This document shows positions 9,464-32,515 of a stretch of DNA of 38,511 bases, piece by piece; positions within the stretch are counted from its first letter, which is position 1, and every line of letters starts with the position of its first letter. Both the position numbers and the translations under genes were made by a program. Below the pieces are notes generated by a model. That model had not been told where the DNA came from and made no database searches. It was given only the letters and a program-made list of their open reading frames with translations. Origin of the DNA: Oligoflexia bacterium (lineage in GTDB: Bacteria > Bdellovibrionota > UBA1018); the NCBI GenBank assembly GCA_023700925.1, contig JAMPXZ010000005.1, forward strand, positions 1 to 38,511. The letters are read 5' to 3'.

Positions 9464-11683
9464 ATGTCTGGCGTTGAACCATCTGCCTTCAGGCTGGAAA
9501 TGCCGTCCGGAACCGGGCCCGAGAAGATCGGGACGCTGGTGTTTGATCTGCCGGGCGAAAAGGTGAACAAGCTCAATCACAGGGTGATGAACGACCTCAG
9601 GGCTGTCCTGCCGGAGCTGGAGAGGCTCGGCAAGGAAGGCGCGCTGGATGCGTTGATACTGGTCTCCGGGAAATCTCGAAACTTCGTCGCCGGGGCCGAT
9701 ATCGAGATGATTCGTGCGACCAAGACTGTCGAGGAAGCCGAGGCGCTCGCGCTGGCGGGCGATGAGGTGGCTAATCGCTGGGAGGATCTCCCTTTCCCGA
9801 CGATAGCGGCAGTGGACGGGGCGGCGCTTGGAGGGGGCTTCGAGCTGGCTCTTTCCTGCAGCGCAATCGTCATGTCCGATGACCCGGGTGCGCGCGTCGG
9901 GTTTCCTGAAGTCATGCTCGGGCTCATTCCCGGCATGGGCGGATGTGTGCGCCTGCCCCGGAAGGGGGGCTTGGCCACCGCGCTTGATCTGATCCTGACC
10001 GGAAAAACCCTGAACGGGGAACGCGCTTTTCGCAGTGGACTGGTCGAAGCCTGCGTGCCGAGGCAGGACTTTGTTTCCTCCGTCAGGCGCTGGGTGATCG
10101 CCAACCTCAAGTCGCTCAAGGAAGGCCGGAGAATCGCCAGGGATCCGAAGCTCGGCGGCATGGGGGGGCTCGCCGGGTCATTGCTCGAGGGCACGCCCAT
10201 GGGACGGCAGGTGATCTTCAGGAAAGCGAAGGACGGAGTCCTTTCCAAGACGCGCGGAAAGTACCCCGCGCCGCTCGAGGCGCTCAAGGTTTTGCGGGGG
10301 ACTTTTGCCGGCTTTGGACCGAAGTTGCGGGGTGAGGCGAGGGATCGCGCGCTGCGCCTCGAGGCGAAGGCCTTTGGAAGGCTCGCGGCCACCGAGGTCA
10401 GCCGCAATCTGATCCGTATCTACACTCTCACCGAGGGCGTGAAAAAATCCAAAGGGCTTCCGGCGGGGGTTGCAGCCGAGGCGCTGCCGATCGCGTCGGG
10501 TGCCGTGCTGGGCGCCGGAGTCATGGGCGGCGGCATCGCGCAGCTCTTCGCTGAAAAGGGTGTTCCCGTCCGCATGAAGGACCTGAATGTTCAGGCCCTC
10601 ACCCTTGGGATTCAGGCGGCGAATCGTTTGTTCCAGCGCCAGGTGCAAAAAAAGCGGATTACGAAGCGGCAGTCGCTGCAGCGGCTCAATCTGATCGCGC
10701 CAGTGCTCGATTACGCCGGGTTCGAGAAGGCCGACGTGGTGATCGAAGCCGTGATTGAGAAGATGGACATCAAGCAGAAGGTCCTTCAGGAAGTCGAGAA
10801 CCACGTCCCCGGCCGCTGCGTCTTGGCGTCGAACACCTCGTCGTTGTCGATCTCTATCATGCAGAGCGCGCTCAAGCGGCCCGAACGGTTCGTCGGGATG
10901 CATTTCTTCAATCCCGTGGACCGAATGCCGCTCATCGAGGTGATTCGCGGAGACCGGACATCGGATGAGGCGGTTTCGACGATTTACCAGTTCAGTAAAC
11001 AGCTCGGCAAGACGCCGATCGTGGTCAAGGATGCTCCCGGTTTTCTGGTGAACCGGCTGCTCGTCCCTTATCTCAACGAGGCTTCGTATCTTCTGGCTGA
11101 AGGGGTGCCGATCCCCGAGCTTGACGAGGCGATGCTTGACTTCGGTATGCCCATGGGACCCATGGAGCTGATGGACGAGGTCGGTATCGATGTCGGCGAA
11201 AAGGTGCTGCACATCCTGCATGAGGCGTTTGGCGCGCGCATGACTCCGGCTCCTGACATGTCCAAGGTCGTGGCGGCCGGAAGGCTAGGTAAGAAGGCTG
11301 GCAAGGGGCTTTATGTCTACGGCAAGGACCGGCGCAAACGCCTGGATCCGGAGATTTACCGAATCCTGGGCACCACGCCGCATGCCGGTGCCGTCTCGGC
11401 CGAGGAGATCGTGGATCGGTGCGTCCTGCCCATGATCAACGAAGCCGCGCGTTGCCTGCAGGAGGGCGTTGTGGCGAGCCCCTCGGAGGTCGACCTGGGA
11501 ATGATCATGGGAACAGGGTTCCCGCCTTTCCGTGGGGGACTGCTCCGCTACGCTGACACGTTGGGGCCCAAGACGCTCGTCGAGCGTTTGAGAAAGTACG
11601 AGAAACGCTTTGGCGCGCGGTTCGAGCCATCACCGGCGCTGCTGGAAAGGGCGGAGCATGACTTACGGTTCTATCCCGCCTGA
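9464..11683 (+). CDS. fadJ: Fatty-acid oxidation protein: enoyl-CoA hydratase/3-hydroxyacyl-CoA dehydrogenase (FadJ/FadB type)
   Basis: 739 aa. Bifunctional beta-oxidation enzyme: an N-terminal crotonase domain (about 1-300) hydrates enoyl-CoA and a C-terminal NAD-dependent dehydrogenase (about 340-735) oxidises the 3-hydroxyacyl-CoA. Crotonase evidence: GADIEMIR oxyanion loop, GAALGGGFELAL and FPEVMLGLIPGMGG with both glutamates. Dehydrogenase evidence: GAGVMGGGIAQ near residue 350, NTSSLSIS, and the HFFNPVDRMPLIEV signature. Two nearby ATGs (9458 and 9464) compete; the GGGGGG at 9451-9456 is properly spaced only from 9464. The partner thiolase (fadI/fadA) is not next to it, and the FadJ versus FadB naming rests on general likeness. 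The lolC-like gene starts inside its 3' end. Confidence 0.88.
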   Translation: MSGVEPSAFRLEMPSGTGPEKIGTLVFDLPGEKVNKLNHRVMNDLRAVLPELERLGKEGALDALILVSGKSRNFVAGADIEMIRATKTVEEAEALALAGDEVANRWEDLPFPTIAAVDGAALGGGFELALSCSAIVMSDDPGARVGFPEVMLGLIPGMGGCVRLPRKGGLATALDLILTGKTLNGERAFRSGLVEACVPRQDFVSSVRRWVIANLKSLKEGRRIARDPKLGGMGGLAGSLLEGTPMGRQVIFRKAKDGVLSKTRGKYPAPLEALKVLRGTFAGFGPKLRGEARDRALRLEAKAFGRLAATEVSRNLIRIYTLTEGVKKSKGLPAGVAAEALPIASGAVLGAGVMGGGIAQLFAEKGVPVRMKDLNVQALTLGIQAANRLFQRQVQKKRITKRQSLQRLNLIAPVLDYAGFEKADVVIEAVIEKMDIKQKVLQEVENHVPGRCVLASNTSSLSISIMQSALKRPERFVGMHFFNPVDRMPLIEVIRGDRTSDEAVSTIYQFSKQLGKTPIVVKDAPGFLVNRLLVPYLNEASYLLAEGVPIPELDEAMLDFGMPMGPMELMDEVGIDVGEKVLHILHEAFGARMTPAPDMSKVVAAGRLGKKAGKGLYVYGKDRRKRLDPEIYRILGTTPHAGAVSAEEIVDRCVLPMINEAARCLQEGVVASPSEVDLGMIMGTGFPPFRGGLLRYADTLGPKTLVERLRKYEKRFGARFEPSPALLERAEHDLRFYPA

Positions 11684-13031
11684 GATCCGCGGGGAGCGAG
11701 TCAGGAAGGGCGGCTCGCCGAGGAGCGGGACGAGGAGTGACGGGGTCGGAGCCCTGAGGCATCTCTGGAGGAGTCCCTGGACGAGCTGGATCGGGTTTCG
11801 TTATCTCAAGTCGAAGAAGAATTCCCGCTTCCTCAGCTTCATCACGTTGATGTCGATCATGGGTGTGTGCCTGGGCGTGACCTCGATGATCGTCGTGCTT
11901 TCGGTGATGGATGGGTTCGAGGCGGAGCTGAAGAAACGGCTCATGTCCACGGATCTTCACGTCCTGATCACGCCGACGCCGCAGACGCCCGGGTTCGAAC
12001 GCGGGTTTGTCCCGAAGACCGTTCTGGAGCCTGAGACGTTGATCGAACGATTGGGGAAAGACAGCGGGATCGTCAGCTTCTGGCCGATCGTGTCGACGGA
12101 GGCGATCCTGCGCTCCGGCCGGAAGGTTGCTGGAGTGGTGCTCAAGGGGGTCAACGAGGAGCGCATGAACAAGCTCAAGACCCAGGTCACCGAGTCGGCA
12201 GACCCGCAGATGCTGGTCCAGCGCGACGGAGCCGAGAGCATGCGGCTCCCCGGAATCTTCGTCGGGCAGGAGCTTGCTTACGAGATGGGATTGATTCCCG
12301 GCGATCAGGTGACGTTGATTTCGCCGACCGAAACCGAGGGGCCGGTAGAGGGCGTTCCGCGGTTGAAGCGTTATGTCGTCGAAGGGATTTATCACTCGGG
12401 GCTCCCCGAGCAGGAGGCGCATACCGCGTTCGCGATGGAGGGGGCCGTACGGTCGTTTCTCCGGCGCGCGGACGCCGTTTCGCAGTGGGAGATCACGGTC
12501 CGCGACTTTGAAAAGGCGCCGGGAGTCGGCGAACGCCTGCGGGCGCAGCTGCCTGCCTTCAAGGTTCAGGACTGGGTGCAGCTCAACTCCCATTTGTTCG
12601 CTTCTCTTCGGCTCGAACGCATCGCGATGGCGGTGATCCTGGCATTCATCGTCGTGGTGGCTTCCTTCAATATCGTCACGACGCTGACCTTGATGGTGCT
12701 GGAGAAGAAGCGCGAGATCTCGATTCTCAAGGCGATGGGCGCTCGGCATGGCGAGGTCGGAGCGATTTTCCTTTCCGAGGGCATGTTGATCGGCGGCGTT
12801 GGGATCGTGTCAGGGACGGTGCTCGGTTTCGTGCTCTGTTCGATCCTGCGTCGCTACGAGTTCATTCAGCTTCCTGACATCTATTACGATCGCACGCTGC
12901 CGGTGACTTTCAACGGCTGGTACTATCTCGGCGTCGCCGTGATTGCGTTCGTCATCGTGATCGCCGCCTGTCTGTATCCGAGTCGGCGCGCGGCGCGCTT
13001 GAACCCGCTCGACGGCATACGCTTCGGATAG
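11658..13031 (+). CDS. Lipoprotein-releasing ABC transporter permease (LolC/LolE family)
   Basis: 457 aa. With LolD it extracts mature lipoproteins from the inner membrane and hands them to LolA. After an unusually long basic N-terminus (about 50 residues) come WIGFRYLKSKKNSRFLSFIT and TM1 (SIMGVCLGVTSMIVVLSVMDG), a large periplasmic MacB-type core (about 95-315), and three C-terminal TM helices of the FtsX domain, including the family motif ISILKAMGA. The ATG at 11658 has a GGAAAGGGCGGAG ribosome site and overlaps fadJ by 26 bases. The ATPase gene lolD is not in the window, so it must be encoded elsewhere. It is convergent with the MotB-like gene, with 5 bases between the stops. Confidence 0.85.
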   Translation: MTYGSIPPEIRGERVRKGGSPRSGTRSDGVGALRHLWRSPWTSWIGFRYLKSKKNSRFLSFITLMSIMGVCLGVTSMIVVLSVMDGFEAELKKRLMSTDLHVLITPTPQTPGFERGFVPKTVLEPETLIERLGKDSGIVSFWPIVSTEAILRSGRKVAGVVLKGVNEERMNKLKTQVTESADPQMLVQRDGAESMRLPGIFVGQELAYEMGLIPGDQVTLISPTETEGPVEGVPRLKRYVVEGIYHSGLPEQEAHTAFAMEGAVRSFLRRADAVSQWEITVRDFEKAPGVGERLRAQLPAFKVQDWVQLNSHLFASLRLERIAMAVILAFIVVVASFNIVTTLTLMVLEKKREISILKAMGARHGEVGAIFLSEGMLIGGVGIVSGTVLGFVLCSILRRYEFIQLPDIYYDRTLPVTFNGWYYLGVAVIAFVIVIAACLYPSRRAARLNPLDGIRFG

Positions 13032-13036
13032 AGCGC

Positions 13037-13729
13037 TCAGCGGCGCGGGGTTTCCGCTGCGGCCGCGGCGGGCACCGCCATGGCTTTGAACTGCTGCTCC
13101 GCCGACCGGACCTGGATCTTGATGTCGACGCGCCGACTGAGATCGGCGTTATAGGCGCCATCGATCATGATCGGAACCCGCGAGCCGCGTCCGTTGGCGG
13201 AGGTGAGCTTGAGCAGGCATTCATAGGTCGCCGGGGCGGCCTGGACGCTGGCGAGGGCTTCCTCGAGCACGGAGTAGGACCGCTTCTGGCTGAGCAGGAT
13301 ATTGTTGCGGATGCCGACCGGGGTTTTTTCGCCCGAAGTGTCGGTGTGCCCTTCGATCACGACTGAGTCGATTTTCGGCCGCAGCTCGGGGCTGCAGACG
13401 CGAGTGGCGAAATTCCGGAAGAAGCCGCTCACGAAGGAGGCCCCTTCGGGGGAAAGCCTGGCGCTGCCGAGCGGGAAGCGGAGCTGCGACTCGCCGACCA
13501 TGACGATGAGTTTCAGCGGGTCTTCGGGGTCCTGGCGGAGCGCGAGACTCTTTTCTTCGAGCAGGAAGCCGAGCTGCTGATGGACCTCTTCCTTGGCCTT
13601 CTTGCTCTGATCGTGCGCCTGTTTGAGAAAGACGACGAGCAGGAGGATGAAAATGACCGCCAGAGAGGTCATCAAGTCCGTCAGGGTGCTGGCGAAAGCC
13701 TGGTTGCCGCCTGAGCCGCTTCCTGCCAT
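13037..13729 (-). CDS. MotB/ZorB-like protein: one TM helix plus OmpA-type peptidoglycan-binding domain
   Basis: 230 aa. The N-terminal TM segment (about 15-36) starts with the MotB-family pattern LTDLMTSLAVIFILLLVVFL, whose Asp is the candidate proton-binding residue of the channel. A short linker helix and an OmpA-like domain (about 90-215) follow, with VVIEGHTDTSG and NNILLSQKRS matching the peptidoglycan-binding motifs. A C-terminal Ala-rich tail closes it. It starts 4 bases after the stop of the MotA/ZorA-like gene and surely forms a stator-like complex with it. No flagellar genes and no zorC/D/E are adjacent. It could belong to a Tol/Exb/gliding-type motor, to an anti-phage ZorAB-type channel, or to something new. 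Confidence 0.78.
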   Translation of the reverse strand: MAGSGSGGNQAFASTLTDLMTSLAVIFILLLVVFLKQAHDQSKKAKEEVHQQLGFLLEEKSLALRQDPEDPLKLIVMVGESQLRFPLGSARLSPEGASFVSGFFRNFATRVCSPELRPKIDSVVIEGHTDTSGEKTPVGIRNNILLSQKRSYSVLEEALASVQAAPATYECLLKLTSANGRGSRVPIMIDGAYNADLSRRVDIKIQVRSAEQQFKAMAVPAAAAAETPRR

Positions 13730-13733
13730 GGCC

Positions 13734-14582
13734 TCACTCGTCCTTTTTCCGCGAAGGCGAGCGGTTCAGCTGGGACAGCTCGGTATGAATGCGGTGGAGC
13801 AGATGTTCGGTTGTCCGTCGCCGGAAGCGCGCGGTTACCTGCGCCACAAGTCGGCGATAGCCCTGTTCGGGGCCCGCGTAGGCGAGGCGCTCGACGAAAA
13901 CGAAGAGAACCGCACAGGTGACGGCCACGATGGACGAGACGAACTTGCCCGAGAGGCCGTTGATCAGGCCGCCGATGCCCTTGACGTCCATGTTCGCGGA
14001 GACGGTGACGTGGGACAGGCCGTCCAGGATCGCGACGAAGGTCATGAGTAAGCCGACGCCGGTGAGGATGCCGGGAATGGCGCCAAAGAGCGCGGTGCTG
14101 ACATGGGCTTCGATTACCGCGGCGCGGGAGAAGATCGAATCCGGCGCCTGAGTGCTGAAAACCTCGTTCTCCTTATCAAGGACGAGGAGCGTGTCTTCGA
14201 ACTCGGTCCAAAGGGGCGCAAGGGTCTTTTCCTTGTTCATGACAGTGCGGATCGCCGGGAGATCCTTAACCCGATTCTTGTCGAGCTGCGTGGCTACGCG
14301 GCTAAGGGTGCCCGAAAGCCGGTTGCACTGTCGCAGAAGGAGGAAGCTCGCGGCGGCAAACGCCAGAAGGATCAAGCAGGAGGCCCAGAAGACGAAGCTC
14401 GGCATCTCGTAGCCGGCAACGCGACAGACGCTGAGAACCTGGCCTCCGACGTCCTGGATCGAGCAGAGTCCGCCTGCGGTTGGGTCCGCGCCAGAAGGCA
14501 TTCCCGCCTTGGGTGCGGGGCCACCGGCGAGAAGTTCGAGGATTTTCCATGGGGCCAATAGATAATCGATGAGGTTCGGCAC
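13734..14582 (-). CDS. MotA/ExbB/ZorA-like proton-channel protein
   Basis: 282 aa. Predicted TM helices at about 60-83, 163-190 and 212-240. The middle segment STALFGAIPGILTGVGLLMT matches the ZorA-type version of the MotA/TolQ/ExbB fold (small residues, then GILTGVGLL-TF), and the third helix is preceded by GLSGKFVSSIVAV. A cytoplasmic region between TM1 and TM2 carries a charged helical stretch. The C-terminal tail is only about 40 residues, whereas described ZorA proteins have a long tail. The start is the GTG at 14582, with a purine run directly before it; a start a few codons downstream cannot be excluded. It is coupled to the MotB-like gene (4-bp gap). Confidence 0.72.
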   Translation of the reverse strand: MPNLIDYLLAPWKILELLAGGPAPKAGMPSGADPTAGGLCSIQDVGGQVLSVCRVAGYEMPSFVFWASCLILLAFAAASFLLLRQCNRLSGTLSRVATQLDKNRVKDLPAIRTVMNKEKTLAPLWTEFEDTLLVLDKENEVFSTQAPDSIFSRAAVIEAHVSTALFGAIPGILTGVGLLMTFVAILDGLSHVTVSANMDVKGIGGLINGLSGKFVSSIVAVTCAVLFVFVERLAYAGPEQGYRRLVAQVTARFRRRTTEHLLHRIHTELSQLNRSPSRKKDE

Positions 14583-14716: not shown

Positions 14717-15277
14717 TTAGGACTCCACGGGACTCGGCGATTCCGTAGGGCTTGGGGATTCGGTCGGCGAGGGCTCCGGCGATGGGGACTCGGTGGGACT
14801 CGGCGAGACCGTGGGCGACGGGGTCGGCGAGATCGTCGGCGAAGGCGTCGGAACCGGCGATACCAGTACGCGACATTCCTCGTTCATCAGGAACCGGAAC
14901 GTGTGCGAGTGGTTCAGCGCTACCTCGGACTCGACGCTGAGCGTGCCGGTGGTTCGAAGGATCTGCAGCTGAATTCGCGTGAGATAGACTAGGTGACTGT
15001 GGATCTGCCCGGCCGTGATTCCCCCGTTGCTTCCGCTGCTGGATTCGAGCGGGTAGCGATCGTTGTCGTTCGCCAGCTGCGTGATGATCGCGTCGACGTC
15101 CTCCGCACGCAGAGCGATGGAGTGGATGTGCTGGTTTTCAACCGTCGCGATCGCCGCACGCGTGGCGTCCGGCAGATCCTGTGATTGTGCGACGACGGTG
15201 AGCACACCGGCGGTGGCTGTCGTCAGGGTCAGGAGTAGGAGAGCTTTGGAGAAAAAAGATTTCTTGGTTGATGGCAT
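14717..15277 (-). CDS. Secreted protein with Pro/Ser/Thr/Glu C-terminal tail, function unknown
   Basis: 186 aa. Basic start MPSTKKSFFSK, a hydrophobic core (LLLLTLTTATAGVLTVVA) and a likely cleavage near VAQSQ form a signal peptide. The middle (about 35-130) is helical with no family I recognise. The last 50 residues are a low-complexity PSPT/ESPSP repeat, typical of cell-surface linker or wall-spanning tails. The ATG at 15277 has a GAGGA ribosome site; an upstream in-frame codon at 15313 would bury the signal peptide. It is divergent from the M3 peptidase gene (114 bp between starts), so both promoters must lie there. Confidence 0.7.
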   Translation of the reverse strand: MPSTKKSFFSKALLLLTLTTATAGVLTVVAQSQDLPDATRAAIATVENQHIHSIALRAEDVDAIITQLANDNDRYPLESSSGSNGGITAGQIHSHLVYLTRIQLQILRTTGTLSVESEVALNHSHTFRFLMNEECRVLVSPVPTPSPTISPTPSPTVSPSPTESPSPEPSPTESPSPTESPSPVES

Positions 15278-15390
15278 GGAGATATTCCTCGTTTCCGAAG
15301 CGGGGTTCTGCAAGCTGTTGGCCTAACGTGCTGGCCAAAGGGCCGGTTGCCTTGGCTTGCGAAACCGTCCACTTGGGGTAAGCTGAGCCC

Positions 15391-17427
15391 ATGCCGAATC
15401 CCAACAAATCCAATCCGCTTTTGAAGTCATCCGCGTTCGAGCACGGCGCGATTCCGTTTACGGAGATCCATGACGAGCACTTCCTGCCCGCTATTGAGGC
15501 CGTGATGGCTCAAGCCAGGGACCAGCTCAAGGCTATCCGTGAGAACAGCCAAGCGGCGGATTTCAGCAACACGATCGAAGCGCTCGAGCTTTGCTCCGAG
15601 AGGCTCGACAGCGTCTCCAATATTTACTCCAACCTCCTTCATGCGCATACGAACGACAAGCTCCAGGCGTTGGCCAAGGAGATCATGCCGAAGCTCGCGG
15701 CGTTCTCTAATGACATCTCTCTGGAACCGGCGCTCTTCGAGAAGGTGCGCCAGGTTTACGAGAAGCGGGCGTCTCTCGGGTTGAGCACCGAACAGGTTCG
15801 TCTCCTGGAAAAGACCTACAAATTCTTCGTCCGAAACGGCGCCCGGCTCGACGACGCGGGCAAGTCTCGTCTCCGCGCGATCGATGAGCGGCTGGCTCTT
15901 CTGGGCCAACAGTTCGGCGATAACGTGCTCAAGGCGACCAACCAGTTCGAACTGGTGCTGAGTGCGCCGGAAGAGCTGGCCGGCCTACCGCCCTCGGTTC
16001 TTGAGTCGGCGGCCGCGGAGGCCAAGGAGCGGAAGAAGGAAGGCCGCTGGGTTTTCACGTTGCAACAGCCAAGTTACGTGGCGTTTCTGAAATTCAGCGA
16101 GCGGCGGGAGCTGCGCGAGAAGCTTTGGAAGGCTTATATGTCCCGCGCGACCGCCGGTGAGACGGACAATCGCGCGATCGCCAAGGAGATCGCAGGACTT
16201 CGCCACGAGCGCGCCCGGCTCCTGGGCTATATGACCCATGCGCATTTCACCCTGGAGGAGCGGATGGCTTCGGAGCCGGCCCGGGTGCACGAGTTCCTCG
16301 AGCGGCTGCATCAGCCGTCGCGGAAGGCCGCGGAAAGGGACGTTCAGGATTTACGCGAATTCAGCGGTATTGCCGAGCTTCAACCGTGGGATGTTTCTTT
16401 CTACTCCGAGCGTCTCAAGAAGCAACGCTTTGGGCTCGACGAAGAGGCCCTTCGGCCCTATTTCAGGCTGGAAAATGTCGTCGAAGGCGTATTCGAGCAT
16501 GCCCGCCGGCTTTATGGGCTCACGTTTCACCGGAGAACGGATCTGCCGGTCTATCATCCCGATGTCGAGCTGTACGAGGTGCGGGACGAGGAGGCGGGAG
16601 AGTTTATCGGCTTGTTTTACGCGGATTTCTTCCCGCGCGACTCCAAGCGTTCCGGCGCCTGGATGACGATCTTCCGCGAGCAGGGACTTTTTGAGGGCAA
16701 GGTCGGCCGCCCGCTCGTCAGTATTGTCTGCAACCTCACGAAGCCCACTCCGAGCAAGCCGTCGTTGCTCTCCCTGGACGAGGTGAGGACGGTTTTTCAT
16801 GAGTTCGGGCATTCCTTGCATGCCTTGCTCTCGAAATGCCGTTACCGCTCTTTGGCCGGAACGAATGTCTACTGGGACTTCGTCGAGCTGCCCTCGCAGA
16901 TCATGGAAAACTGGGCAAAGGAAAAGGAAGGGCTCGACCTCTTCGCCCGCCATTATCAGAACGACGAAAAGATCTCCGCCGAGCTCGTTACCAAGATCCA
17001 GGCGAGCGCGCGGTTTCAGGCTGGGTGGTTCTCTCTTAGGCAGCTGAGCTTCGGAAGGCTCGACCTGGCCTGGCACGCCGCGGATCCTTCGGGCATCGAA
17101 GATATCGAGGATTTTGAGCGCCAAGCAATGGAGTCGTGCATGCTCTTCCCGCATGTGCCGGGTTCAATTATCTCCTGCGGTTTCGCTCATATCTTCGCGG
17201 GCGGGTATTCAGCGGGCTATTACAGCTACAAATGGGCCGAGGTTCTCGATGCCGATGCCTTCGAGCTCTTCAGGGAAAAGGGGCTCTTCAACAAGGAAGT
17301 CTCTCAACGCTTCAAGGAAAACATCCTTTCGAAAGGCGGAACAGAGCACCCGATGGAGCTCTACAAGCGCTTTCGAGGCCGTGAGCCGGATCCGGATGCG
17401 CTCTTGAGACGGGACGGAATGTGCTAG
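15391..17427 (+). CDS. prlC: M3 family zinc oligopeptidase (oligopeptidase A type)
   Basis: 678 aa, the usual length for OpdA/PrlC. Cytosolic metallopeptidase that degrades short peptides, including cleaved signal peptides. The N-terminal half is the helical M3 lid (starting PLLKSSAFEHGAIPFTEI). The zinc site is HEFGHSLHALL (H470-H474) in the family context TVFHEFGH, with the third ligand glutamate in the following helix (VELPSQIMENW). FAHIFAGGYSAGYYSYKWAE near 590-620 is the substrate-binding Tyr/Gly loop typical of the family. The ATG at 15391 is preceded by a purine-rich GGGGTAAGCTGAG. Confidence 0.92.
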   Translation: MPNPNKSNPLLKSSAFEHGAIPFTEIHDEHFLPAIEAVMAQARDQLKAIRENSQAADFSNTIEALELCSERLDSVSNIYSNLLHAHTNDKLQALAKEIMPKLAAFSNDISLEPALFEKVRQVYEKRASLGLSTEQVRLLEKTYKFFVRNGARLDDAGKSRLRAIDERLALLGQQFGDNVLKATNQFELVLSAPEELAGLPPSVLESAAAEAKERKKEGRWVFTLQQPSYVAFLKFSERRELREKLWKAYMSRATAGETDNRAIAKEIAGLRHERARLLGYMTHAHFTLEERMASEPARVHEFLERLHQPSRKAAERDVQDLREFSGIAELQPWDVSFYSERLKKQRFGLDEEALRPYFRLENVVEGVFEHARRLYGLTFHRRTDLPVYHPDVELYEVRDEEAGEFIGLFYADFFPRDSKRSGAWMTIFREQGLFEGKVGRPLVSIVCNLTKPTPSKPSLLSLDEVRTVFHEFGHSLHALLSKCRYRSLAGTNVYWDFVELPSQIMENWAKEKEGLDLFARHYQNDEKISAELVTKIQASARFQAGWFSLRQLSFGRLDLAWHAADPSGIEDIEDFERQAMESCMLFPHVPGSIISCGFAHIFAGGYSAGYYSYKWAEVLDADAFELFREKGLFNKEVSQRFKENILSKGGTEHPMELYKRFRGREPDPDALLRRDGMC

Positions 17428-24593: not shown

Positions 24594-25319
24594 ATGACCA
24601 TGAATACCGCCCAGACTGTCCGGAATAAAATCACTGATCAAGGCCCTGATTCACTCTGGTCGTATGCAGACTTTGGCGGGGTGCCTTTTCAAGCTCTAGC
24701 AAAGGCCTTGAGTCGACTCGTTAAAGACGGGCTCATTCAGAGGGTGAGAAAGGGCATATACTATTACCCAAAAAAGACCGCGCTCGGGGCCTCTCAGCCG
24801 AGCGCTTCGGCGCTGCTCGCCAAGGCGATGGTGCGCGGCGGGGATACTCCGGTTTTCTCCGGAGGTACGGCTTCATTTCAAAACCTGGGGCTAACTACGC
24901 AGGTCCCGGCGCAATACACAGTTCTAAGTGGGGCCGCTCCGAGGACCATCCGGATCGGAGGGGTAACGGCGCGGGTCCGACACCGTGAACTTGGCCACCT
25001 GGCGGGCGCGAGCCAACGGGACGTATGGCTTCTGGATGCGATTCGAAATTTGAAACATGTACCGGATTCGACCCCGGCAGACGCACTGGCCAAAGTGATG
25101 AAACAGCTTAAGGCGGGCGCCCAGCCCGTGAAAAAACTCCTCCGTTTTGCCCAAGGCGAGCCGCCCAGAGTCCGAGCGCTTATGGGCGCGATGGCTGAGC
25201 AGATTGGCTATCAAGGCCCGGAGCTTCGGAAGCTTCGCAAGTCGCTTAACCCACTTACAAAATTTTATATCGGAGTCGGCTCGGTGCTTCCCAATGCGCC
25301 GGCTTGGAATATTGTGTAA
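24594..25319 (+). CDS. DUF6088/AbiEi-like winged-helix protein (antitoxin-like, no adjacent toxin)
   Basis: 241 aa. The N-terminal part reads AQTVRNKITDQGPDSLWSYA, then GVPFQALAKALSRLVKDGLI and RKGIYYYPKK, which is the winged-helix/wing pattern of DUF6088/AbiEi-type antitoxins. The second domain (about 65-165) has PSASALLAKAM, the NLGLTTQVPAQYTVLSGAAP block and HRELGHLAG, also typical. In type IV toxin-antitoxin pairs this protein represses its own promoter and counters an AbiEii nucleotidyltransferase. Here the next gene is another regulator 138 bases downstream with its own promoter, so it is solitary or shares the distal toxin. ATG codons at 24594 and 24600 both fit. Confidence 0.72.
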   Translation: MTMNTAQTVRNKITDQGPDSLWSYADFGGVPFQALAKALSRLVKDGLIQRVRKGIYYYPKKTALGASQPSASALLAKAMVRGGDTPVFSGGTASFQNLGLTTQVPAQYTVLSGAAPRTIRIGGVTARVRHRELGHLAGASQRDVWLLDAIRNLKHVPDSTPADALAKVMKQLKAGAQPVKKLLRFAQGEPPRVRALMGAMAEQIGYQGPELRKLRKSLNPLTKFYIGVGSVLPNAPAWNIV

Positions 25320-25417
25320 TCATGCCTTTGCACGAACATCCTGAGTTTGTTGATTTTGTCCGAATCGTGAGTGGCGACCGGGGTGCAAGAATGTAAAGGG
25401 TCAACAGAGAGTAAACC

Positions 25418-25457
25418 ACTATACAAAAAAATTTGTATAGTGTAATATTTTGTATAG
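25418..25457. promoter_or_regulatory. Operator and promoter of the toxin-antitoxin-like pair: three half-sites
   Basis: ACTATACAAA (25418-25427) and TTTGTATAGT (25432-25441) form a perfect 10-bp inverted repeat. A third half-site TTTGTATAG (25449-25457) directly abuts the ATG at 25458. TATAGT at 25436-25441 could be a -10 element, giving an almost leaderless mRNA. Binding of the encoded winged-helix protein here would block both transcription and the start region (inference). Confidence 0.6.
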
Positions 25458-26213
25458 ATGGGGAAAGCTAAAAGATCGAATCTCCTTCCTGAAATAGAGC
25501 CTGCCTTAGTAGACCCCTTTAGCAAGAAAGGAGCACTCGCACTTTTTTGGCTCCTCGCCCGGCGGCCGGCAGCTTCGGAGGGCGGGTTTTCTGTCAACCA
25601 AGCGGCAAGAGAGCTCGGGATTATGCCTTTTACGGTCCATCGCGTGGTACGGACGCTGGAATACGACGGGATTATCCGGGCGCAAGGCATAGCGACCAAA
25701 AAGAGATTTCATTTGGCTGAGCCGAAGGGTCTCATGATCCGTTGGATTCGCCACTACCAAATTCAGCGCAAGAGCAAGCTACATAGGTACGGACTCAGTA
25801 ATCCAAGGGAGTTTTCGTCAAGGCGCCAAGAATTTCTCGGAGCATTTGTCGTTCCGGCTCTTCATACTGCAGCGCAAACGGTCTTCCGCGCCGGTGTCAC
25901 GAATCTTTTGACTACGGAAGGCTATACTGACGGAAAAGGTGCGCTAAAGTTGGCTCGCAAGTTCGGGCTGATTGAGCAGGATAGGGGATATGAAGTGCTC
26001 TTAATTGAGCCCTATTATCTCGAAGTTGTCCGGAGATTCAATAAGGACCGTAGTGACCCGATCTGGAAATCTGCTTTTGCAGTCCTGACGTTTCTGGATC
26101 TTTATCATTTTCCCCTTCGTGGAAGGGAACAAGCAGAAGTGCTGTTTAGGAAGACGCCAGCGCTGAAAACTCTTGGTCCCTGGGCAGAATTTGAGGCCAT
26201 CGAGGTCTTTTGA
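25458..26213 (+). CDS. AbiEi-like winged-helix regulator/antitoxin
   Basis: 251 aa. The N-terminal region contains a helix-turn-helix, SVNQAARELGIMPFTVHRVV (about 47-66), followed by RTLEYDGIIRAQ and a wing. A C-terminal domain (about 120-250) of unknown fold contains LLTTEGYTDGKGALKLARKF. No ribosome site precedes the ATG; instead an operator half-site touches it, so leaderless translation or a weak start is likely. Its stop overlaps the next start by one base (TGATG). Family assignment rests mostly on the coupling to an AbiEii-like nucleotidyltransferase; a different regulator family is possible. Confidence 0.6.
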   Translation: MGKAKRSNLLPEIEPALVDPFSKKGALALFWLLARRPAASEGGFSVNQAARELGIMPFTVHRVVRTLEYDGIIRAQGIATKKRFHLAEPKGLMIRWIRHYQIQRKSKLHRYGLSNPREFSSRRQEFLGAFVVPALHTAAQTVFRAGVTNLLTTEGYTDGKGALKLARKFGLIEQDRGYEVLLIEPYYLEVVRRFNKDRSDPIWKSAFAVLTFLDLYHFPLRGREQAEVLFRKTPALKTLGPWAEFEAIEVF

Positions 26214-27004
26214 TGCCGCAGGCCACGAATGAAATCATAATAGCGGAGTTGGAAAACTTGATTGCACATCTGGAGGAATGGTCGCAGTGTCTCGTCCTCG
26301 GTGGCGGCGTGGCGCTCATTGTTTACGATCAATGCATGGCAGGTGACTCTGCGAGGCCGGTTGGGACCACGGATCTGGATTTTTTGATTCCACGGAGTCC
26401 CGACGTCACGGTCAACACCCAGCCGCTTTCAAGAATTCTGGAAAGCCTGGGGTTTTCCACTCGGCTCAAGAGCTTGGGTAATCCACCTATTGAGTCCTAC
26501 GTGAAGGAAGTTGAAGAAACGGAAATTGAAGTAGAGTTTCTGACGGACGATCGAACGAGAAAGAAAAAGGATTCTACTCAGATTCCGAAAGCGGGCGTTG
26601 TTGCTCAGTCCCTCTCGTATCTTGAAATGAGTCTGAATTCGGCTACGACCGCGAAACTACCGCGCGGGACCACTGTTCGAATAGTGCGTCCCGAGGCTTG
26701 GGTTTTTCATAAAGGTCTGACGTTCACCCGGAGAAAACCGGGCTCCCTCAAAAGCACGAAAGATCTATACGGGATCTGGTTTGTGCTCACGATGCTCGGA
26801 GAGTTTTCAGAGAGGACTTGGGCAGGACTCAAGAATATTCAGTCACAGCAGCCCTCCTCTTGGGAAAAGACGTTCAAAAGCAATCTCAAAGGATGGGTTT
26901 ATGAGGCGACACCAAGGGATTGGGCACAATTGCTATCCCAGGACCCGGAGCAACGTCTGAAGAAGGAAGCGTTCGTCGGAATGGTGGAGAAGCTATCGGA
27001 ATGA
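26213..27004 (+). CDS. AbiEii-like nucleotidyltransferase (putative toxin)
   Basis: 263 aa. The N-terminal half shows CLVLGGGVALIVYDQC followed by RPVGTTDLDFLI: the GG(T/V)AL...R.T.DLDF pattern of AbiEii/MenT-type nucleotidyltransferases, with the two metal-binding Asp in DLD. A third acidic position may be in EIEVEFLTDD. The C-terminal helical part contains WVFHKGLTFTRRKPGSLKSTKDLYGIW, a segment like the K...KDLYD motif of AbiEii proteins, here split by a short basic loop. In known systems such enzymes add nucleotides to tRNA acceptor ends or phosphorylate serine, and the partner represses them. The 1-base overlap with the regulator gene supports a toxin-antitoxin-like pair. A role in plain antibiotic-type nucleotidylation is less likely. 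Confidence 0.65.
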   Translation: MPQATNEIIIAELENLIAHLEEWSQCLVLGGGVALIVYDQCMAGDSARPVGTTDLDFLIPRSPDVTVNTQPLSRILESLGFSTRLKSLGNPPIESYVKEVEETEIEVEFLTDDRTRKKKDSTQIPKAGVVAQSLSYLEMSLNSATTAKLPRGTTVRIVRPEAWVFHKGLTFTRRKPGSLKSTKDLYGIWFVLTMLGEFSERTWAGLKNIQSQQPSSWEKTFKSNLKGWVYEATPRDWAQLLSQDPEQRLKKEAFVGMVEKLSE

Positions 27005-27009
27005 GGGAT

Positions 27010-27050
27010 CCCGCTCGGCTGAAACGCCGGGCGGCGTTAGCTCGAGCGGG
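27010..27050. terminator. Strong hairpin between the two convergent island operons
   Basis: Nested arms: CCCGCTCG (27010-27017) with CGAGCGGG (27043-27050), GCT with AGC, and AACGCC (27023-27028) with GGCGTT (27033-27038), giving 17 pairs with a 2-base and a 1-base bulge and a GGGC loop. It begins 6 bases after the nucleotidyltransferase stop and overlaps the last codons of jetD. No T-tract follows on either strand, so it is termination-like but unproven. Confidence 0.5.
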
Positions 27051-28425
27051 CGTATTCCCCAAGGTCCCGGACCAGTATTCCGGCAAGCTGTTCCTCGAAA
27101 ATAGGACGGTTTGCCTCCCTCATCGCATCTGTCAGCCCGGGTTCCCATGGCGAAAAGGCAGGAGAGCCCGCCAACGGGAGTATCCCTTCCGGCGCAAGTT
27201 CCAGCCCGGTTCGGTAATCCTTTTCTGAAAAACGCCAGACGCTGGAGCCAGGATATCGCGTCAGGAGGTGGCCAACGATCCGGATCCCATTCCAGTCGAA
27301 ATCCGCGCGGACCCTGAACTTTGCGCCGCAGCGGGCGAACAAATCCAATAGATGAAGCGTCGCTGAGGAGGGGATACCTTCGGTGCAGATCATGGGCGGA
27401 CTGACTTTTCCGAGTGCCTCGGCGGCCTCCGTCAGGATGCCAGGATTTTCGCAGATAAAGATCTCCGTCCCGAGCGGTACCTCGATCGGCGATAATGAAA
27501 GCTCCCGGAGCGTGATCCGTCGGGGCTCGCCGATCTCAGCCAGTTCGTTGAGGTGCCGAGCAAGGGGACGCTGGCTAGGCAGAGATGGCCGGAGGCCGAG
27601 CACAAGAACGTCGCATGAAAGGGGATCGCAGGCGACTCCGAAATGGGCCCAGAGGCGGCGGCGGTCGGCTGCGGCGAGCGGGGGCGTTTGCCAGTTCGCG
27701 ATCGCGACGAGCGCACCTTGGACTAGAGTCGCGAAGGGGCGATTGGTATCCAGTGCATGAGGGTCACCTAAAGCTGCGGCTGCGAGGACAGGTAACGTGA
27801 TGATGCTGTCGGCCTGAAGGGCCCCAGGTCCATATTTTTCATGGCGTGAAATACGAATGAGAATATCCAACGTCCCCAGAAGCAGGGCTCGTTCATTCCT
27901 GTCAAGCATATCAGGCATATCAGGCATTTCAGAACCGGAAGCCAGTCGCTTGAGCGTTCCTTTTGCCCGTAAATTTTCAAGCCAGGCCAACAGTCTTTCT
28001 TGGACGTTGTCGGAGCTGGTTGGTGAACCGTCCTGCTGCTCGGGTCGCAGCGCCGCATGTCGTTTTGCCTCTTCCCAAAGCTGATCTTCCCGTTCCGAAT
28101 CCGATCGCTTTTCGGAAGGAATATCGCGGAGGGGGCCGGTCATCGCCTCCAGCAGTTCCGCGAGGCCTGCTCCCAATCGGCTGCTTCGGAGGGCGAGGTC
28201 CAGTCGTTCGATCGAAATACGGATGGGAGGACTGGGAACTGTATCCCATCCATGTAAATTCGCGATGGCCTGGCATTCTGCCGCTGACAGATGGCTAAGC
28301 GTGACCATCTTTGCGGCACCTGGACCGGCGAGCTCCAGTCGCTTCCTCACGGCTGTAAAGAGCCTCCGGTAAACATCACTTTGAAGGTGTTTGAAAGCGG
28401 CCTCATCCATAATCGGTTTAGTCAC
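27037..28425 (-). CDS. jetD: Wadjet type II nuclease subunit JetD (TIGR02679 family)
   Basis: 462 aa. JetD is the Toprim-type nuclease subunit of Wadjet, which cuts circular plasmid DNA that the SMC complex has reeled in. The C-terminal region (about 320-400) carries the metal-site pattern: FICENPGILTEAA with E326, then RVRADFDWNGIRIVGHLL with D375 and D377. The N-terminal two-thirds is a helical, TIGR02679-like arm. The GTG start at 28425 gives an 8-base overlap with jetC; an ATG at 28410 is an alternative. It is the last gene of jetABCD. All the expected acidic residues are present, so the protein looks active. Confidence 0.85.
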   Translation of the reverse strand: MTKPIMDEAAFKHLQSDVYRRLFTAVRKRLELAGPGAAKMVTLSHLSAAECQAIANLHGWDTVPSPPIRISIERLDLALRSSRLGAGLAELLEAMTGPLRDIPSEKRSDSEREDQLWEEAKRHAALRPEQQDGSPTSSDNVQERLLAWLENLRAKGTLKRLASGSEMPDMPDMLDRNERALLLGTLDILIRISRHEKYGPGALQADSIITLPVLAAAALGDPHALDTNRPFATLVQGALVAIANWQTPPLAAADRRRLWAHFGVACDPLSCDVLVLGLRPSLPSQRPLARHLNELAEIGEPRRITLRELSLSPIEVPLGTEIFICENPGILTEAAEALGKVSPPMICTEGIPSSATLHLLDLFARCGAKFRVRADFDWNGIRIVGHLLTRYPGSSVWRFSEKDYRTGLELAPEGILPLAGSPAFSPWEPGLTDAMREANRPIFEEQLAGILVRDLGEYARSS

Positions 28426-31400
28426 CCATGTCTCTCATGGATTTTCCGTCCCAAAGGAACCATTCCGCCAAAACGCCCCGCAGTCCCGTCTCCCGGGAGA
28501 GGTGATAAGTCGACAGTCCGTCCAGTTCGGCGTAAAAACCCCATTCCTCATAGGAAGTCATCACGAAATCGAGGTCGAATTCGGAAAGGATCGTCATCAA
28601 TTGGCCCCGGATCGTCGGATCGATTCCGGCAAAGGCCTCATCGAGCAAAATCAACCTTGGGGACGAAGGGGAGGCGGATTCAAAAAATGCGGCAGCGGCG
28701 GCAAATAACGGAAGATGCAGCATGACGGCCTTCTTGCCGCCCGAGCCCTCACCGTGACGTTTTCGTGTGAGTAACTTCCAGGGGGTCCCCGAATCTTTAT
28801 ACTCGATCTTGAATTCGAACCAGCTTCGGTAGTCGAGGGTTTTCATCATGCGTTCATGATAGCTTCCGGAACCGTCGCTAAGGCGTGCTTCCTCAAGTCT
28901 TTGTGCCAGAAACCCGCGCAGTCCGCTCCGCTCGGAGTCCGATAAGAGATGGCCTGCCCGGAGCAGAAGACGGATCACTTGCTCGGTCTCCCGAGGGGCG
29001 CTTTCGGTGACCTCCCATTGGAGCCGGACCAATGACCCCGATGCTGTAGGACATTTCAGAAGGACAGCGTTCATTCGGTCGATCAAGTGCCTGGCTTCAC
29101 GGACCCGGGCCCGTAGGTGCTCATGCGTTTCACCCGAGAGGAATGATTCGAAAACCTGGCGCTCGTCGTCGGCCAAGAGACGATCCCGGATTTTGATTTC
29201 CGCCCCGAGCTCGGCGATCAAGCGCGATAAATTCATGATCTGCCCGTTGTAGCCTGCCATGTATATGAGCACGTCGCCGGTTCTCTCGGCTGTCAGGCGG
29301 ACGTCGCCCGCGAATTCGCGAAGAAGGTCCTGGTGCTGCTGGTTCACTCGGTTTTCAAATTTTTCTCGTTCCTCGGGGCTTCCGGTCAGTGATGAATCCG
29401 AGCCGGCAGCCACGGCTCGGGCGGCGTGCAGTGTTTCCGTCAATGTCCAACTCTTCGAGTCCAAGTTGGGGCTTTCCGTCTCGGCACAAGCCGCGCTGAG
29501 TCCGGCTTCATCCAGCAAGGCCGCGGCAGCGAAGGCGCGGAACCTCTGGGCCGTCTCTTGCCGCAGGGAATCCTGCTGTTCAACCGCCGCTTCCGCATTG
29601 CGGCACTCCGACAAGGCCGCGCCGAAATCCTGCTCCGCTTGGGTGATTTCCCCGCGGGCTTTGACGAGGTTTTCATTGCAGGATCTCCTTTCGCTTTCAA
29701 GGGACTGCATTCTTCTGAGCAGCGCCTTCGGATCCGCTCCGAGGCTGGCGCTGAGCGACTCCGCTTGAATCTTGAGTTTCAGCGCGTTCTCCGATGAGGC
29801 CAAATGTTCGGCGCTGGTCTCGTCAAACCGAAATAGGGCAAGCGCGGTGGCCTTTTGAAAGTCCTGCAGCCTTCTTTTTGCGTGTTCCACGGAATAGGCG
29901 CATTGGATCAGATCCCTGAAGGCGCTTTCGTAACTCTGATGTTTTTCACGCAATTCGGCGAGTCGGTCGCCCCACTCCAATAAACCCGTCCGCACCAGCG
30001 TTTCATCGTACCGCGCTTCTTGCTGATGATACTCCGTTGCGGCTTCCGCCGCCGCGAACTCGGCCTCGGCCAAGGCGGCTTGGGCTTCGGCGAGGTTGCG
30101 GGTTTCGGCCTCGACTGTCGCTCTGAGTTCTTGAACCGGCACAAGCGAAGGGAATTGTTCCTGCTCAGCGAGCAGCGCTCTGGTTCGGGTGCGGTTCTCT
30201 TCGATGGCTTTGAACGCGAGTTCTCTCCTGGAACGCAGATCCCTGATCAAGAGGTTCAGCGCCTGTATTCGCTCCCGTCGCACCCGTTCTCGCGACGCTG
30301 CGCCCAGGAATTCAGGATGCTCCTTTTGATAAAATCCATGAAGCGGGCCTGCCTGGAAAGAACCGTCGTCGGAAATCCAAAACGGAGCTACGGCATCGAG
30401 GGCATTTGCTATCCCGCCCCTGCGATACCCGATGCTGGATAGAATCTTCTTAATCACCGTGGCTGCAATCGGCGTATCCGCATCCACGACGGGAATCAGA
30501 ACGTCAGCTAGGGTGGGCGTGCCGTTCGGAAGTGGGGCTGATTCAAGAAGCAAGTCAAATCCCTGAGGCGGCATGAACCGGCCATCAGAGGTCACTCTGG
30601 CGTCGAGCAGCCCGGCTGCTTGGATGGCCCCTTCGATTTTCCCCTGCGTATTTTCGTCGATTCCCGGCGCGAATTCACAAAGAAGGTAGAATGAACGAGA
30701 ATCTTCTCTCGGAGATCTTGGCGTCCTCCATGCGGCCAAGTCCGGTCTTTTATGGGAATCCGCTTCAAGCGCATTGCGCTCTCGTTCATGGATCTCGATC
30801 GAGGCGTCGAGCTCTTTCTTTCCCACGGTCAGGAGGCTGAGTTGCTCGACGAGCTCGGAGCGGAGCTCGGCTGCCGCCTGATCGACAAACTGCTTCATCC
30901 TGTCCACGGGCAACGAAAGCAGCTCTTCCGCTAATTGAGGCGAGAAAACAAGAGCATGGGAGGACTCCAGCCACGTTGAAACCGCCGATCCAAACGCCTC
31001 GACCGCCCGTTCGAGCTCGCCTTCCCGCGAGCGAAGTCGCTCCATTCTTTCGTCCACGACATTTGCAGCAGTGGCGCGGCGATCCTCCATTCGGCGCATC
31101 TTGTCCCGAGAGGTCGTGACCAACTTGTGTTCTTGGTCTGCCTCAGTGATCGCGCGACGGCGTTCCGAGAGGATTCCCTCGCCGGTGCCTCTCGCGGCCT
31201 GTGTAGCACCCTCTGAGAGTTGGCGGGAGATACTGGCCTGAGGGCCGTGCAGTCCCGCCTCGCGGGCCGCGGCTTCGGTTCTTCGATCCTGGGTCGTAAA
31301 TATTTGTTGAGTTCCTTTGACTTCGTTTACAGCGGCCTCTTCCCGAGAGCGCGCGTGCTGCAGTTCGGTGCGATCGCGATCCGCTTTCGCGCGTACGCGG

Positions 31401-32515
31401 TTCTCATTCCGCAGGGATTCTTCGGCCAGCTGCCGCAAACGATCCAACTGTTGAATCGCCTCGTATTCGCGGGAGGCCTTGATTCCTTCGATCTGCTGAT
31501 CCAGTTCCAAGTCGAGAGATTGTTGGGAGGTGATCCGTTCCGAGAGGGTAGCGCGCTTTTGATCTGCCTCCGTAATCCTTCCCTGTGCTTCACGCAAGAG
31601 ACCTCGGCGCTTCTGATATTCACTTTCAGACTGGGTGATCTCTGACGCCCTGGCTTTGGCGACAGAGTGGAGATATTTCCGATAGACCTTGAGAAAGGTT
31701 TCGAGGGCGGCGCTGGTCTGACCCAATTGGTTGCGTTCCTCGCGAAGTCGATCCAAGCGCTCAAAACCCTCGGCCAGACGCCCGATGGTTTCTGGATTCA
31801 GAGGCGGGAGACTCACTGACAACACCCGAGACAGCTCCGGAAGGTCAAGTCGCTTGGACAGCTGAGGACGGCGGAGTTCGAGCAAGGCTTCGATCAATGC
31901 ACAGTATTGCTCTTCCGCCATTCCGAATAAAAAGCTGTTCACTTCGCGCCGATAGTCGGCACTTCTCTCGAAGACGTGCCCTTTCCCCTGAAAGACGTCG
32001 CCGAGCCTCGAAGGCGTGATCGGGATCCGGTCATTCCCCAACGGGTTCCAGTCCTGATCGACACGCAGCGGTGTGATGAAGTACCGTGCGTCCACTCCTG
32101 GGGTTCCCCTTTTGGCCCTCAATCCGGCGCCGATCGTGCAGAACTCCGATGCATTGCCATTCTTGCGTCCAAATTCGATCCAGAGATACCCGATATTGAC
32201 GTTTACCTCCGGGTTTTGGTCATTGATCAGGTTCCAATACATCGGGCGGGACGTCGATCCGAAGGGGTCAAGCCGTTGGGGTGAAAGATCGGCATCGAGC
32301 AGAAAGGGAAGCAGTACCTCGAGTGCTTTCGACTTTCCGGATTCGTTTCGCCCGCGAAGTAGAAGCCGACCGTGGTGGAAGACGAATCGCTGGTCATCGT
32401 ATTCCCAAATGTTCTGGAGGCCGGCGCGGAGAAGCTGCCACCGGTCTTTGCTCGGGGTTGGAAGAGACGTCCTCGCATCAGTTGGTGTAGAACCGAGAAG
32501 ATTGGGCTCGTTCAA
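28418..32515 (-). CDS. jetC: Wadjet type II SMC-like ATPase JetC (TIGR02680 family)
   Basis: About 1365 aa. It is the MukB-like motor that loads on DNA and extrudes loops. Walker A is GRNESGKSKALEVLLP at about 55-70, then FLLDADLSPQRLDPFGSTSR. A long coiled coil rich in Glu/Arg/Gln follows (about 300-560 and 760-1100), interrupted by a hinge-like globular region. The C-terminal head has the signature-type GSGGKKAVMLHLPLF and Walker B LILLDEAFAGIDP with D1292/E1293. The start is most likely the TTG at 32515: it overlaps the jetB stop as TTGA, is preceded by AGAGGAG 5 bases upstream, and the longer open frame lies inside jetB. Neither head motif is damaged. Confidence 0.88.
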   Translation of the reverse strand: MNEPNLLGSTPTDARTSLPTPSKDRWQLLRAGLQNIWEYDDQRFVFHHGRLLLRGRNESGKSKALEVLLPFLLDADLSPQRLDPFGSTSRPMYWNLINDQNPEVNVNIGYLWIEFGRKNGNASEFCTIGAGLRAKRGTPGVDARYFITPLRVDQDWNPLGNDRIPITPSRLGDVFQGKGHVFERSADYRREVNSFLFGMAEEQYCALIEALLELRRPQLSKRLDLPELSRVLSVSLPPLNPETIGRLAEGFERLDRLREERNQLGQTSAALETFLKVYRKYLHSVAKARASEITQSESEYQKRRGLLREAQGRITEADQKRATLSERITSQQSLDLELDQQIEGIKASREYEAIQQLDRLRQLAEESLRNENRVRAKADRDRTELQHARSREEAAVNEVKGTQQIFTTQDRRTEAAAREAGLHGPQASISRQLSEGATQAARGTGEGILSERRRAITEADQEHKLVTTSRDKMRRMEDRRATAANVVDERMERLRSREGELERAVEAFGSAVSTWLESSHALVFSPQLAEELLSLPVDRMKQFVDQAAAELRSELVEQLSLLTVGKKELDASIEIHERERNALEADSHKRPDLAAWRTPRSPREDSRSFYLLCEFAPGIDENTQGKIEGAIQAAGLLDARVTSDGRFMPPQGFDLLLESAPLPNGTPTLADVLIPVVDADTPIAATVIKKILSSIGYRRGGIANALDAVAPFWISDDGSFQAGPLHGFYQKEHPEFLGAASRERVRRERIQALNLLIRDLRSRRELAFKAIEENRTRTRALLAEQEQFPSLVPVQELRATVEAETRNLAEAQAALAEAEFAAAEAATEYHQQEARYDETLVRTGLLEWGDRLAELREKHQSYESAFRDLIQCAYSVEHAKRRLQDFQKATALALFRFDETSAEHLASSENALKLKIQAESLSASLGADPKALLRRMQSLESERRSCNENLVKARGEITQAEQDFGAALSECRNAEAAVEQQDSLRQETAQRFRAFAAAALLDEAGLSAACAETESPNLDSKSWTLTETLHAARAVAAGSDSSLTGSPEEREKFENRVNQQHQDLLREFAGDVRLTAERTGDVLIYMAGYNGQIMNLSRLIAELGAEIKIRDRLLADDERQVFESFLSGETHEHLRARVREARHLIDRMNAVLLKCPTASGSLVRLQWEVTESAPRETEQVIRLLLRAGHLLSDSERSGLRGFLAQRLEEARLSDGSGSYHERMMKTLDYRSWFEFKIEYKDSGTPWKLLTRKRHGEGSGGKKAVMLHLPLFAAAAAFFESASPSSPRLILLDEAFAGIDPTIRGQLMTILSEFDLDFVMTSYEEWGFYAELDGLSTYHLSRETGLRGVLAEWFLWDGKSMRDMGD

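Follow-up and report, generated by a model that had tools for sequence, protein, structure and literature searches.

The window, by which we mean the whole 38,511-nucleotide stretch analysed here (GCA_023700925.1, contig JAMPXZ010000005.1, from an Oligoflexia bacterium of the Bdellovibrionota), encodes a gene pair that, judged by profiles and trees, is a member of the Zor lineage of A/B motors; on balance, we read it as a stand-alone ion motor, anchored to peptidoglycan and serving envelope work with no Zorya-style effector signalling. Both genes lie on the minus strand, with 4 bases between their ORFs. The zorA-like gene (13734–14582, GTG start), called from its ORF and PADLOC models, encodes a tail-less protein of 282 residues with three transmembrane (TM) helices (hydrophobic stretches at residues 64–82, 168–186 and 212–230). 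The zorB-like gene (13037–13729), called from its ORF, PADLOC and a Pfam OmpA match that lies below cut-off (1.8e-4), encodes 230 residues formed by one N-terminal TM helix and an OmpA-like domain. Both ORFs, the helices and the Zor profile matches bear out the initial annotation, which had paired a three-TM ZorA-like protein with a MotB/OmpA protein.

Profile searches place the two proteins with Zor. ZorA of the window matches 19 PADLOC ZorA models (best 1.7e-29) and ZorB matches 7 ZorB models (best 1.3e-29); NCBIfam ZorA models reach 3.3e-20 at best, all five falling under their curated cut-offs. Solved chains are matched too: ZorA chains 8vvn (5.6e-13) and 8qyd (3.4e-11) by the window ZorA, and the MotB-like chain 8vvi (4.2e-10) by the window ZorB, 8vvi being type II ZorAB according to the cited passages of PMC11890865. 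None of the four tail-less ZorAs found in the phylum (below) matches PF01618 (MotA/TolQ/ExbB proton channel) at E values up to 1, compared with 5.2e-29 and 5.3e-28 for the genome's own MotA and an Agl A protein; three Zorya ZorAs give 1.2e-4, 0.015 and 0.029, all under cut-off. As controls, own MotA has no match to the ZorA models, and three Agl-type A proteins score 0.022, 6.5e-6 and 0.027 against them. Because own MotB also reaches a ZorB1 model (3.6e-11), a match of the B subunit alone is less telling, and that of the A protein more so.

A survey of 368 genomes from the phylum, all incomplete drafts, recovered the tail-less pair in four: the window's own (G000; 3.35 Mb in 262 contigs, 88.6% complete), one of the same genus (G001), one of the same family (G005) and one of another family (G301). 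Identity to the window is 70%, 49% and 29% for ZorA and 84%, 58% and 47% for ZorB (G001, G005 and G301, respectively). The pair is present in 3 of 35 genomes surveyed in the family, and such patchiness weighs against the envelope-motor reading, since accessory and defence genes are also patchy. A scan of genome contigs with short patterns, which detects close relatives only, returned the G001 locus alone. Profile searches of the phylum reported ZorA in 9 and ZorB in 5 of the 368 genomes; neither was exhaustive for Zor proteins, as the first missed the ZorA of G119 at its threshold and the second the ZorBs of G029, G052 and G098. Long-tailed ZorAs are present in six genomes (G029, G098, G052, G079, G129 and G119), adjoined by ZorB, ZorC and ZorD in G029 and G098 and by ZorB, ZorD and a weak ZorC match (4e-4) in G052; the G079 and G129 loci are interrupted by contig ends. 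In G119 (L070, 8542–10956), a 587-aa long-tailed ZorA and a 216-aa ZorB have no effector recognizable nearby by eye, a possible ZorAB-only case; the link between tail and partners is hence not a strict one.

Phylogeny points the same way as the profiles. In a ZorA tree built from core columns, Zor rows split from Exb, Agl and Mot rows (95/97), and on the Zor side the four tail-less ZorAs group as a single clade (99/99); a tree with the tail columns included returns the same clade. A ZorB tree groups the same four members (100/99); the ZorB of G029 groups there with MotB, as two long branches. With a p-AU of 0.22 for a single Zorya clade, positions of the tail-less clade inside Zorya and beside it are both compatible with the tree. 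These trees leave out the genome's own TolQ (L001), and G119 is absent from them and from the residue counts given below. The phylogeny that the initial annotation had proposed, with Mot, Exb, Agl and Zor proteins (own TolQ left out), thus groups the pair with Zor. That annotation had also held that placement inside flagellar MotAB, with flagellar genes in the genome, would count against it: the genes are present (FliG and a separate MotAB), but the placement is with Zor. Neither the tree nor the profiles lend support to membership of the flagellar, Tol, Exb or Agl groups.

We judge it quite improbable that the pair is an additional stator serving flagella or gliding, with a ring that drives a cytoplasmic rotor such as FliG or a gliding track. 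FliG is found in G000, G001 and G005, and the B subunit is OmpA-like as in MotB, own MotB itself resembling ZorB models; against this, the pair stands apart from own MotA and the Agl A proteins in the tree, has no PF01618 match, and shares its genome with a separate MotAB and three Agl-type loci. These last belong to a set of seven MotA/TolQ/ExbB loci over the Pfam cut-off in G000 (by eye, one Tol-type, two Exb-type, one MotAB and three Agl-type with two ExbD-like genes each), the ZorAB pair not being among them. G301 has the pair, yet FliG was not found in this genome (74% complete).

The four ZorAs end 50, 53, 45 and 43 residues after the R232 position, against 271–617 in 12 Zorya ZorAs (that of G129 is cut at its C-terminal end, making its tail length a minimum), which puts figures on the earlier remark that the MotA-like tail was much shorter than in Zorya. 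The long cytoplasmic tail that marks a Zorya ZorA is accordingly absent from all four (43–53 residues), and in the window its place is taken by a short C terminus (residues 233–282; 13737–13886, minus strand). The opposite end is extended, with 52–66 residues before Cys53 in the tail-less proteins versus 2–36 in the others, lengths that mean little for Nitrosospira and Polaromonas because their annotated starts are late; the G005 ZorA start is uncertain, being read from a non-start codon with an assembly gap upstream. This extension (residues 1–63 in the window; 14394–14582, minus strand) carries Cys40 and Cys53 and is probably periplasmic: Lys and Arg number 3 in the N terminus of the window ZorA versus 12 in its C terminus, which argues for the former outside and the latter inside. 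Single-chain models made with two sequences each are too poor for a fold search (mean pLDDT 49 for ZorB and 43 for ZorA), and we gave no weight to a beta hairpin that the ZorA model suggests at residues 40–55, with both cysteines (pLDDT about 50–60).

Alignment picks out further features common to the tail-less proteins. Cys40, Cys53 and Lys213 of ZorA are found in 4/4 of them, in 0/12 Zorya rows and in 0/6 Exb/Agl/Mot rows. Lys213 (13944–13946, minus strand) sits in TM3, four residues before Ser217 and, given that spacing, probably on the same helix face; its position is occupied by Ala or Ser in 12/12 Zorya ZorAs and by Ala in all six Exb/Agl/Mot A proteins. In ZorB, Cys112 and Cys171 are present in the four and in none of nine Zorya ZorBs (own MotB is gapped there). 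Zorya is represented by nine ZorBs but 12 ZorAs because no ZorB is given for P. aeruginosa and the contig ends of G079 and G129 leave none.

Residues of the engine itself are conserved. Arg150 of the ZorB OmpA motif, which we take to be a peptidoglycan contact, is kept in 14/14 B rows. ZorA position 217 is Ser in 16/16 Zor rows and Thr in the six other A rows, and Thr181 is found in 21 of 22 A rows, with Ala in own MotA. The ion-coupling aspartate of ZorB, Asp18 (13676–13678, minus strand), is Asp in all 14 B rows; a critical Asp of ZorB is reported in the cited passages of PMC11890865. All four tail-less pairs retain Asp18, Thr181, Ser217 and Arg150, and so possess the coupling set of 5:2 ion-driven motors, an Asp on B with a Thr and a Ser/Thr on A. 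Alternatively, the complex may not rotate and may act as a regulated ion channel or envelope sensor, in which a ring of Lys213 pairs with ZorB Asp18 and peptidoglycan stress opens the complex. This reading would draw on the invariance of this lysine (4/4, absent from 18 other A rows) and on the lack of a tail for transmitting rotation; we give it little credence, with every motor coupling residue kept and the pore position of Lys213 derived from alignment only.

Recognizable effectors are missing around the pair. A Pfam scan of 26 window ORFs, some without any family match, recognizes none as ZorC, ZorD or a flagellar, Tol or Exb component, in keeping with the initial observation that no flagellar, Tol, Exb or Zorya effector genes lie alongside; nor were the operon partners of Zorya (zorC with zorD, zorE, or zorF with zorG) recognized among the neighbours. 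By eye, no Zorya partner is recognizable next to the pair in G001, G005 or G301, the G301 contig being 4,167 bases long and ending 441 bases past zorB, with a next gene that is not recognizably ZorC. The suggested survey of neighbours in relatives therefore returns the same two-gene arrangement in 4/368 genomes, with no zorC or zorD recognized beside it. A search for EH_Signature (ZorC) found none in G000, G001, G005 or G301 and recovered two of three positive controls (G029 and G098 found, G052 missed). SNF2 helicases of G000, G001 and G005 do match a ZorD model, but 7 of 14 control genomes give such matches too, so little can be drawn from this.

The pair is convergent with a lolC/E-type permease gene (11610–13031, plus strand) and is flanked on its other side by an M3 peptidase gene (15391–17427, plus strand), both of which are context outside the motor. 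In G000 and G001, fadB and lolC are followed by zorB and zorA, which face lolC convergently, and then, after a variable gene or two, by M3 peptidase; in G005 the pair is two genes away from lolC. Across 22 lolC loci of the family (about 1.5 kb per side), the pair adjoins lolC in 2, that of G005 lies just beyond, and 19 have none; in G010 only 59 bases separate lolC from the M3 peptidase, a site without the pair. Between G000 and G001, dN/dS is 0.13 for zorA, 0.12 for zorB and 0.10 for both lolC and M3, at dS values near saturation (1.64, 0.95, 1.34 and 1.53, respectively); against G005, zorA gives 0.36 and zorB 0.21. GC3 of the pair is 0.78 and 0.83, compared with 0.72–0.83 in eight other chromosomal window genes and 0.60–0.63 in four genes of an AbiE/Wadjet cluster (JetB not in the set). 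Syntenic, under purifying selection and housekeeping-like in codon use within the genus, the two look like ordinary inherited cell genes. Decay of a former Zorya locus would fit the absence of tail and partners and the patchy presence, but such a remnant is highly improbable: the same build recurs in four genomes of two families with signature residues in common, and the dN/dS of 0.12–0.13 between G000 and G001 contradicts it, indicating purifying selection. Frameshift or truncation, as a separate explanation of the short ZorA, is not supported, given the identical layout in four genomes and the same selection.

Genes directly upstream differ between the loci. In the window, 134 bases upstream of zorA, is a gene (14717–15313, minus strand) whose 198-aa product probably has a signal peptide and carries a repeat tail rich in Pro, Ser and Thr; it was not seen in G001. 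In its place G001 has a PAS-type histidine kinase gene (by eye; L015, 9642–10775), which shares the strand of zorA, lies 38 bases ahead of it and may be co-transcribed with the pair, and G005 (L014, 1495–7630) has at least two large, related, secreted-looking proteins in tandem directly upstream of the pair.

A defence cluster that the initial annotation had not mentioned lies 10 kb from the pair (24.6–35.4 kb). It consists of an AbiEi-like antitoxin gene (2.1e-42) followed by a weak-HTH gene and a nucleotidyltransferase-like gene (PF12281), together spanning 24594–27004 on the plus strand, and an adjoining Wadjet type II set (27037–35437, minus strand) of four overlapping genes that match JetA2, JetB2, JetC2 and JetD2, a complete-looking plasmid defence. 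This proximity, the patchy presence of the pair, its nearest relatives (ZorAB of Zorya) and the SNF2 helicases matching the ZorD model elsewhere in G000, G001 and G005 could all be read as signs of a reduced or divergent Zorya, an envelope phage sensor whose effectors lie elsewhere in the genome or which acts through ion leak alone. We consider this rather unlikely. Zorya defence is lost on removal of each component, of the ZorA cytoplasmic extension or of the ZorB peptidoglycan-binding domain (cited passages of PMC11890865), and ZorAB alone is not sufficient (cited passages of PMC8565338); defence is less favoured here because tail and partners were required in the Zorya systems tested in these passages. 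The four genomes have no EH_Signature gene, the SNF2 match recurs in half of the control genomes, codon use of the pair is unlike that of the defence cluster, and synteny beside lolC holds at genus level. A pair without tail and partners should therefore not work as the described Zorya does.

On plasmids (PLSDB), a tblastn search with the window ZorA returned 3 records, in each of which the match carries the zorA annotation. In two, the genes run A, B, EH signature, SNF2; the third, from P. aeruginosa, has A, an EH-signature gene and a helicase but no zorB in PLSDB's table, which is incomplete. The window ZorB had no match among plasmids. The G301 ZorB matched 5 records at 28–29% identity, and an HNH gene adjoins in both of the two examined, as in Zorya II. 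A phage search gave no match, and among viral contigs 41 stretches fitted the pattern, none of them a relative. We found no description of a tail-less, partner-less ZorAB among the open-access papers searched, including the cited passages of PMC11890865, PMC12505986 and PMC8565338.

The missing tail and partners, together with the look of ordinary inherited cell genes, suggest a further role for this engine beyond phage defence. The initial proposal of a stand-alone, peptidoglycan-anchored motor is strengthened in part, by the Zor-type core, the retained coupling residues, the OmpA-like ZorB, the absence of a tail, the lack of recognized partners and the recurrence of the two-gene unit in 4/368 genomes; the jobs it suggested (gliding, envelope work or an unrecognized defence role) stand as candidates. 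In our reading, the two genes would give an inner-membrane, ion-driven motor of the Zor lineage in which, by homology with the 5:2 assembly of Zorya ZorAB (cited passages of PMC11890865), five ZorA most likely surround two ZorB helices. The OmpA-like domain would hold ZorB to peptidoglycan, and ion passage at the site formed by ZorB Asp18 and ZorA Thr181 and Ser217 would turn the ZorA ring. This motion would probably serve envelope work on the membrane or the periplasmic side, transmitted by the N-terminal extension and the disulfide it probably contains; we infer a periplasmic output because the tail and ZorC, ZorD and ZorE are missing, the engine residues are kept and the new N terminus is predicted to lie outside.

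A further step, possible but doubtful, would be to see in these pairs a separate class of Zor-lineage motor—two-gene, tail-less, disulfide-stabilized and with periplasmic output—whose Lys213 ring, next to the ion-coupling site, alters gating or ion choice. If so, such an engine may have been the starting point of Zorya, to which tail and effectors were added, or else the tail-less branch may descend from Zorya and have been domesticated for cell work. The cited passages present ZorAB solely as the central unit of a system against phages. A version inherited without tail and effectors would demonstrate that the core motor can function by itself, and would open to testing whether the motor or the defence role came first in the origin of Zorya. 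It would also provide a naturally occurring A/B pair lacking the tail, in which to ask which part of ZorAB signals.

Set against known systems, the pair has the three-TM A subunit and similar size of TolQR, ExbBD and Agl-type pairs, but its B subunit is OmpA-like, not ExbD-like, it falls on a separate branch, and the genome has its own copies of those systems elsewhere. With flagellar MotAB it shares ion-coupling logic and a peptidoglycan-binding B subunit; it differs in having no PF01618 match and in branching separately, in a genome with its own MotAB. The long-tailed ZorAB of G119 is from the same phylum and likewise a pair with no effector recognized by eye, yet its ZorA is 587 aa with a long tail and its ZorB has no cysteine. 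The closest likeness in build is to the ZorAB core of Zorya types I and II, with which the pair shares a three-TM A, a one-TM OmpA-like B, the coupling Asp, Thr and Ser and adjacent A–B order. Unlike that core, it has no cytoplasmic tail and no recognized ZorC, ZorD or ZorE, stands outside any defence operon, and has instead a longer N terminus with two cysteines, Lys213 and two cysteines in ZorB.
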